The notes beneath the pieces are model-generated. The model was not told the origin of the DNA, did no database searches, and worked only from the letters and a program-made list of their open reading frames with translations. Of a stretch of DNA of 61,843 nucleotides, positions 27,987 to 61,843 are shown piece after piece. Made by a program: the position numbers and the translations under genes. This stretch comes from a virus. The first letter of the stretch is position 1; the number at the start of each line of letters is the position of its first letter. The DNA lies in the IMG/VR virus record IMGVR_UViG_3300048813_000081, positions 1-61,843 of that record; one strand, given 5' to 3'.

Positions 27987-28008
27987 AGGTCTCTCCACTC
28001 TCTAGATA

Positions 28009-28014
28009 ATTATA
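28009..28014 (-). promoter_or_regulatory. TATAAT box for baseplate operon
   Basis: On the minus strand TATAAT lies 22 bases upstream of the gp25-like ATG, immediately after the candidate RNA and its terminator. It would make the baseplate operon independent of the RNA transcript. Confidence 0.4.
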
Positions 28015-28019
28015 AGTGA

Positions 28020-28597
28020 TTAATGTGGTATATTAAACAAACGGTTAGCCGTAAGGTTGACACAGGGGCGTCACTGAGTTAAATCGGGGGCGCTCCGTCC
28101 TTTTAATCTGTTATAATAGATAAACGGTCAGAGAGTTGCATTATTACTGGCTGAGATTTCGTAACGGTGGATGCTTATATCCGAAGAATTGGTAACGGGT
28201 GCAAACTGTGCCAATAGGGTATGAGAACTATCTAGGTTCATGAGCCAGATACGCCGTAAATCGCCCCCCGCCCCAGGAATTTGAAGACCTGAAGGGGGTT
28301 TACTACCACAATAGTAACCTGGAATGTACGTCGGCAAAACGTGCAGGATGGGTTGCGTACAGAAAACCCCCGGATCTCTCCAGGGGTCATATAGCTATCT
28401 ATATAAGGACACCTGCGTACAGGATATCTATTCGAAGAGGACTTATTAGATGGGCCTCTTTTCGCTAATTCTGCCACCGGGAAATCCCAGTGTATCAATC
28501 ACGACAGCAAAGTTATTCACTTATATGTCGCCTGCTGTACGATGTCAGAGACACCTCTGGACTACAACGCCCAGGCTCTTTCTTAAGCTAATCGTAC
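28020..28597 (-). ncRNA. Candidate large structured non-coding RNA (~560 nt)
   Basis: This stretch has no credible gene on either strand but is dense in hairpins. Examples on the minus strand: CCCC-T-GGA-GAGA-TCC-G-GGGG with a GNRA tetraloop; CGAA-AA-GAGG with CCTCTTCG; ATATAG-ATAG-CTATAT; GGTTACTA with TAGTA(A)ACC; TGTACG with CGTACA; ACAGCA with TGCTGT; a GGGGG/CCCCC long-range pairing. CTGGGC/GTCCAG pairs only on the minus strand, through a G-U wobble. It starts just after an extended -10 (28604-28612) and ends near a T-rich hairpin (28031-28052). Size and phage setting recall ROOL/GOLLD-class RNAs, but I cannot test family membership. A plus-strand TGTTATAAT at 28109-28117 leaves the opposite orientation possible. 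Confidence 0.5.
28031..28052 (-). terminator. Candidate terminator of the structured RNA
   Basis: On the minus strand ACGG-CTAA-CCGT forms a short stem followed by TTTGTTTAATA. The stem is only 4 bp, so termination would be modest. Its place between the RNA candidate and the baseplate promoter is right for a transcript end. Confidence 0.35.
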
Positions 28598-28603
28598 TAG
28601 GAT

Positions 28604-28612
28604 ATTATATCA
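28604..28612 (-). promoter_or_regulatory. Extended -10 promoter for the structured RNA
   Basis: TGATATAAT on the minus strand fits TGnTATAAT exactly, and its TGA is also the stop codon of the upstream 58-residue membrane gene. Transcription would start near 28597 and run through the gene-free segment in the same direction as the flanking operons. Confidence 0.5.
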
Positions 28613-28796: not shown

Positions 28797-28816
28797 TTAT
28801 GATGCGTTTGCATTTT
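28797..28816 (-). repeat. Second copy of spike-gene 3' end
   Basis: The last bases of the HNH gene, AAATGCAAACGCATCAT plus stop, match the spike-gene end at 29222-29241 (AAATGCTAATGCATCAT) at 15 of 17 positions and in the same reading frame. The HNH copy retains the TAAGGAG that serves the downstream gene, so it looks like the original 3' end. Confidence 0.65.
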
Positions 28817-29225
28817 GTTTCTTAATTGCTCTATTATACGTTCTGATTCTATGACAATTAGCACATACTAGTTCGCATTTAGCTAATTCGTTTGCTAATT
28901 TCTCACCCGTATAACCCGTAATAACCGCATTGGAAATTTCAAATCTTTTTATACCTCTAACATGATCGAAATCCATTACACATGAAGGGTAGGTTATACC
29001 GCAATCAATACAAGGTCGGTTTTTCATGTCTTGTAATTTTTTCTTTCGTTTGAACCGTTTAAGCCTTTCATATTCATTAATTTTGATCCGATTCCTGCGG
29101 CGCCATTGCGTATCAAGTTCTTTTTTGCATACTTTACAATAATACAATCGCCCATCCCTACTGCTTGTAGAATAAGTAAATTCAGTGAGCGATTTAGTAA
29201 TATTACATCTAATACAAATTTTCAT
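28797..29225 (-). CDS. HNH homing endonuclease inserted after spike gene
   Basis: The 142-residue protein has a zinc ribbon (MKICIRCNITKSLTEF ... YCKVCKKE), a basic linker, and an HNH core (CIDCGITYP, VMDFDHVRGIKRFE, ELAKCELVCANCHRIRTYNR). Its ATG overlaps the spike stop (ATGA). Its final codons (NANAS) and about 17 bases of DNA repeat the end of the spike gene, which marks the insertion point. It is a free-standing mobile endonuclease; the spike gene end is its likely target. Confidence 0.9.
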   Translation of the reverse strand: MKICIRCNITKSLTEFTYSTSSRDGRLYYCKVCKKELDTQWRRRNRIKINEYERLKRFKRKKKLQDMKNRPCIDCGITYPSCVMDFDHVRGIKRFEISNAVITGYTGEKLANELAKCELVCANCHRIRTYNRAIKKQNANAS

Positions 29226-61266: not shown

Positions 61267-61506
61267 AACTGTTAAATGTTCGCTGCTATCGGTAATGCTC
61301 CGATCTCTGATATCCCTATCAGCCTGACAACTTTGTAGTCAGCGGTTTACTTGGCTTCCAGGTCGTGGAACAGATACCGTGTGAGCAAGCGGTTGGGCTA
61401 GTGAATAAACCTCTTATGTAATTAATTAACTTACGCATTGCCTTGTCCTCCGTGCCTTAGTAATACTATATTAGCAAGAACTCAGGCGCTTGCATATGTA
61501 GCTGTA

Positions 61507-61620
61507 TAACAGTGTTTACATAAGTACACATATGGCTAGATAGTGTATAACAGTGTTTACACAGTGTTATATGCATATATACATACACAGCCTGCCAGGC
61601 TGTATGTAACAGTGTTTACA
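61507..61620. repeat. Iteron-like repeats TAACAGTGTTTACA
   Basis: Exact copies of the 14-mer lie at 61507-61520, 61548-61561 and 61607-61620. The first and third are followed by TAAGTACACATA, making 26-base repeats. The middle copy lies within a TATAACA/TGTTATA dyad. A 17-base dyad (ACAGCCTG-C-CAGGCTGT, 61587-61603) precedes the third copy. Confidence 0.75.
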
Positions 61621-61680
61621 TAAGTACACATAGTAACGGTGGATGTCACACACACACACATACATACGCATGCCATACAG

Positions 61681-61760
61681 TGGCAGGCGTTACATAGCGT
61701 AGGTATATACATATAAGTACATGCGTTACGTAACCAGCTAGGCGTGGCAAGCGTTACATA
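61681..61760. repeat. Second repeat family TGGCArGCGTTACATA
   Basis: TGGCAGGCGTTACATA (61681-61696) and TGGCAAGCGTTACATA (61745-61760) differ at one base. A shorter GCGTTACGTA lies at 61723-61732. They adjoin the first iteron family and extend the repeat array to the contig end. Confidence 0.65.
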
Positions 61761-61843
61761 ACTTCATGAAGATATGTGAAGATGTGTGTATGTGTGCGTA
61801 TGTGAAGAGATGTAACGATATGTGAAGCAGGGTATGCCCCCCC

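Follow-up and report, generated by a model that had tools for sequence, protein, structure and literature searches.

Two convergent structured RNAs as a candidate exchangeable cassette in a phage tail operon

A gap between two tail genes of a tailed phage holds, on comparison with its relatives, two predicted convergent structured RNAs, one of about 240 nt on the minus strand (alpha) and one of about 183 nt on the plus strand (beta). The relatives keep the folds of these RNAs yet swap whole RNA pieces, which suggests that the locus is occupied by exchangeable accessory genes made of RNA only. We consider it somewhat probable that the pair constitutes an 'RNA moron', that is, two autonomous, convergent non-coding RNAs within a phage tail operon which would be transcribed during infection and act in trans.

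The locus and its relatives

The window, which is the whole stretch of DNA analysed (61,843 nt), is a 61.8-kb tailed-phage record in which a baseplate-J tail operon lies on the minus strand. The gene for a small membrane protein, ending at 28610, and a gene for a 139-aa tail protein (27998-27579) are separated by about 610 nt in which no reading frame is shared. With the neighbouring proteins as queries, four IMG/VR contigs were found, L071, L072, L075 and L079, the last of which is 72 kb long. All four have the gene order of the window and baseplate J proteins of 73-75% amino-acid identity; their homologous gaps measure 439, 437, 248 and 480 nt, respectively. No match was obtained with baseplate J in genome contigs or with the 139-aa protein in viral contigs, and a DNA search of phage and plasmid collections returned nothing similar. 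The comparison set is small and entirely metagenomic, with three sequences for full-length alpha, four for its 5' domain and two for beta.

Elsewhere in the window, a free-standing HNH endonuclease gene (PHROG 2255; 28797-29225, minus strand) sits between the gene for a 357-aa tail protein and that of the small membrane protein, and is absent at the corresponding place in L071 and L079. A 185-aa open reading frame of L071 (3232-3789) separates baseplate J from the tail gene next to it and is missing from L072; this is another accessory insertion in the tail operon. Dense short repeats, for example AACAGTGTTTACATAAGTACACATA, occupy 61500-61843, close to the end of the record.

Two predicted RNAs rather than one

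The original prediction placed a single structured RNA of about 560 nt, co-directional with the tail genes and resembling the ROOL and GOLLD classes, in a gap without a credible gene. That the gap encodes structured RNA rather than protein was borne out, since none of the frames stays open through the region in all homologues and 28597-28357 covaries across relatives. A single minus-strand transcript was not. When the whole region was folded and compared with shuffled sequences, the plus strand gave a z-score of -3.63, whereas the minus strand was no better than the shuffles (z -0.85). In sliding windows the minus strand folds better in approximately 28350-28600 and the plus strand in approximately 28000-28300. 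For alpha, 134 of 138 cells pair on the minus strand against 117 on the plus strand, while for beta 94 of 99 pair on the plus strand against 84 on the minus strand. As G-U pairs distinguish the strands, alpha is assigned to the minus strand and beta to the plus strand, so that the two converge with their 3' ends about 50 nt apart. Co-directionality with the tail genes thus holds for alpha (28597-28357) and fails for the second half of the region, where a distinct RNA on the plus strand has an extended -10 of its own (28109-28117) and a terminator-like hairpin. The T-tailed hairpin near 28040, proposed as the end of the long transcript, forms a stem of only 4-5 bp on the minus strand; it is strong on the plus strand and has no counterpart in L079.

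The phage setting and the total length of the gap did favour one large, ornate minus-strand RNA of the ROOL/GOLLD kind, but with the second half on the opposite strand and the minus strand overall not unusually stable, this reading is largely refuted and may be set aside as highly improbable. The suggested Rfam search, run on both strands of the window and its relatives up to an E-value of 1, gave no match, the weak ones lying far below gathering scores; at an E-value of 10 the region likewise matched no ROOL, GOLLD, group I or II intron, riboswitch or known ribozyme. ROOL and GOLLD are structured non-coding RNAs of phages and prophages, of unknown function, which form homo-oligomeric cages; many GOLLD members exceed 800 nt, and both classes are frequently, if not always, found near tRNA islands (PMC12286853). 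The present locus resembles GOLLD in having one conserved and one less conserved part. It differs from both classes, whose RNAs are larger, in comprising a convergent pair of some 240 and 183 nt, with homologous gaps of 248-480 nt in the relatives and no tRNA anywhere in the 61.8-kb window. Membership is thus not supported, the locus being set apart by the Rfam models and by its context.

The alpha RNA

The predicted elements of alpha, all on the minus strand, are as follows.

28357-28597, minus: alpha RNA, about 240 nt, 3' end approximate; homologues at 286-463 of L072 and 4112-4293 of L079, with covariation
28537-28597, minus: 5' domain, helix P1 closing hairpins P2a, P2b and P3; common to four genomes (covariance model R1)
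28588-28575, minus: hairpin P2a of the 5' domain
28574-28557, minus: hairpin P2b of the 5' domain
28555-28541, minus: hairpin P3 of the 5' domain
28475-28492, minus: helix P4; three pairs with two-sided changes
28435-28460, minus: helix P5 with conserved loop CCCAUCUAAUAAGU; covered by the alignment and the structure test
28366-28387, minus: helix P7 with a GAGA tetraloop, C-G to G-C exchanges, and a U-rich tail with a second, upstream pairing, P8

Between 28597 and 28357 the window is 81-85% identical to L072 and L079, against 71-78% for the adjacent genes. The window sequence was used to write a test structure of 46 pairs, and 97.1% of cells are paired as it requires; 13 of its pairs differ on both sides among the window, L072 and L079. 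None of 500 shuffles reached the observed pairing and covariation, and sliding the partners reduced pairing to 37-47%. RNAalifold returned the same helices together with an additional one, P8, between GCAGAA and the bases that follow the GAGA-capped hairpin. Two of the stems noticed originally are found within this structure: the GAGA-capped stem is P7, conserved with compensatory changes, and CTGGGC/GTCCAG is P2b, which pairs on the minus strand through G-U and covaries.

The 5' domain extends to a fourth genome, L071, and across the four, eight pairs are changed on both sides. Its covariance model finds one copy per genome, and no second copy in either the window or the 72-kb relative. In the window, alpha has two additional segments (about 39 and 26 nt), both of which could fold into a hairpin; additions of this sort are common in peripheral RNA helices. 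The 3' end is less sharply defined, for the bases that follow P7 take part in P8 as well, and L072 and L079 do not have a clean U-run. Taken together, alpha would comprise a conserved multi-helix 5' domain and a replaceable 3' domain.

Some chance hairpins are to be expected in regions of this length, and the locus might be decayed coding sequence or hold no functional RNA at all. For alpha this is refuted by its covariation, by conservation above that of coding DNA, and by indels that do not come in threes with no frame open in all homologues; for the locus as a whole it is very improbable.

The beta RNA and adjacent hairpins

On the plus strand the following elements are predicted.

28122-28304, plus: beta RNA, about 183 nt, ending in a hairpin and UUU (28264-28304); homologue at 4336-4512 of L079, minus strand
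28155-28262, plus: beta core, closing helix of GAUUU/AAAUC and ACGG/CCGU with two branches; a 27-nt identical run and kept helices
28026-28105, plus: a pair of strong additional hairpins located upstream of beta; U-rich tail, TGGTATATT upstream (z -4.09 for 28038-28108)

Beta has a single homologue, in L079, at 81.6% identity (E-value 7e-31), which is above the 71-78% of the adjacent genes. Five changes are two-sided, and several further exchanges retain pairing through G-U. Because 21 of 500 shuffles do as well when only two sequences are compared, this covariation is supportive but not conclusive. A GGGGG/CCCCC pairing forms part of the 3' hairpin of beta on the plus strand; this hairpin and the short U-run that follows it would plausibly serve beta as its own terminator. 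The extra hairpins at 28026-28105, which are present in the window only and have no counterpart in L079, may represent a small third RNA.

At 61633 the beta core recurs over 13 nt (E-value 1.3), which was judged to be due to chance. The pattern GGTGCAAACTGTGCC, taken from beta, was found in 68 contigs, none with wider similarity and nearly all within long open frames. For TCGTAACGGTGGATGC the only true homologue was the L079 contig, and ACGATTAGYTTAAGAAAGA matched only the contig of L072.

Promoter-like sites

Three -10 elements are associated with the region.

28604-28612, minus: extended -10 of alpha, TGATATAAT, from a pattern scan; TATAAT in the window, L071, L072 and L079
28109-28117, plus: extended -10 of beta, TGTTATAAT; a similar site in L071, L072, L075 (an exact TGNTATAAT) and L079 (TGTTATTAT)
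28009-28014, minus: -10 box for the tail genes downstream; TATAAT in the window, L071, L072 and L075, TTTAAT in L079

The exact extended -10 anticipated at the start of the unit is thus present, and every one of the four alpha-bearing genomes retains its TATAAT, at a distance of 6-7 nt from the GTACG that follows. In the window the TGA of this element doubles as the stop codon with which the upstream membrane-protein gene ends, but among the genomes the box abuts TGA, TAA or TAG. Since its position is constant despite the differing stop codons, the box seems to be kept for its own sake, as would befit a sigma-70-like, autonomous promoter. In L071 and L072, GTGACA lies 16 nt upstream of it. Across the whole window TGNTATAAT is not enriched (4 found, 6.5 expected); two of the four sites flank the alpha/beta region, where about 0.06 would be expected.

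Exchange of modules among relatives

The cassette varies between relatives at one site, being exchanged in L071, L072 and L075. L071 keeps the 5' domain of alpha and joins it to an unrelated 3' domain. At the place of beta, L071 and L072 have a different RNA body, similar at its 3' end and preceded by an extended -10; a compensatory change between their two bodies is only suggestive. L075 has no alpha and only an unrelated plus-strand RNA, with a z-score of -4.69 and an end formed by a hairpin and UUU. At 1291-1403 of L071 and 4316-4563 of L075, the places of the alpha 3' domain and of beta are taken by folded but unrelated RNA modules. The cassette is absent from L082 and from the Komagataeibacter phage phiKX1.

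These comparisons also bear on a role in cis, in which alpha would be a structured attenuator, processing site or stability element in the tail mRNA, and beta a convergent transcript or insulator shielding the promoter at 28014-28009 from the upstream tail genes. Alpha is within the tail operon and co-directional with it, in the relatives the downstream genes have a promoter-like box of their own in front of them, and P7 resembles a terminator. Nevertheless, alpha has its own conserved -10 directly after the stop codon, the folds are far more elaborate than a terminator requires, and modules are swapped whole, L075 having the same flanking gene order without alpha. Taking alpha and beta jointly, a role in cis is a serious but rather unlikely alternative.

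Discussion

In the favoured scheme, that of autonomous RNAs acting in trans, alpha would be initiated at the sigma-70-like -10 that overlaps the upstream stop codon, and beta would run from its extended -10 to the hairpin with the short U-run. Both would be transcribed during infection and, as stable structured RNAs, probably act in trans, a view reached mainly by exclusion. Most likely they would bind a host or phage protein, or ribonucleoprotein, as a decoy or regulator, rather than pairing in antisense with the phage's own messages. Protein or ribonucleoprotein binding is favoured because complementarity is lacking: in neither the window nor L079 do alpha and beta share a complementary stretch of at least 9 nt, and complementary stretches of 13 nt with other transcripts of the window are limited to one chance-like match. 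The same lack of shared complementarity argues against alpha and beta being mutual regulators whose read-through transcripts would overlap, each silencing the other as a natural antisense RNA. The convergent layout, with closely spaced 3' ends, would suit such an arrangement, but there is no overlap between the mature RNAs, and the exchange of beta types does not depend on alpha, which makes this improbable.

Phage morons are autonomous accessory genes among the late genes and classically encode proteins. The alpha/beta cassette resembles them in having its own promoter-like sites and, for beta, a plausible terminator-like end, in lying between tail genes, and in being present in some relatives and swapped; it differs in that it appears to be RNA-only. 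Module exchange and absence from L082 and phiKX1 fit an accessory, moron-like role. More tentatively, the site may gather a number of structured RNA families of separate descent, among them alpha with its replaceable 3' domains and at least two to three types of beta; these would recombine as modules and would act in trans on factors of the host, possibly its defence.

The bacteriophage-encoded anti-sRNAs of E. coli, found by Hfq crosslinking, are likewise RNAs from phage accessory loci (PMC4104026), but alpha and beta have extensive conserved folds, and no pairing partner was found for them in the window. Small stable phage RNAs of 100-200 nt include RNAs C and D of T4 and the packaging RNA of phi29. 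These occupy other genome positions, and neither the phage collection nor Rfam revealed similarity to them. The suggestion of a new class remains the best description; alpha and beta are most aptly regarded as novel families of structured RNA whose broad kind is already known, and what is unusual about them is their convergent, modular layout.

Partners of these RNAs could be sought directly with the conserved unpaired loops as bait. Catalogues of phage accessory loci usually list proteins. If the reading proposed here is correct, conserved and modular RNA-only units, convergent and with promoter-like sites of their own, would add new RNA families, and RNA modules would be traded between phages in the manner of protein morons.
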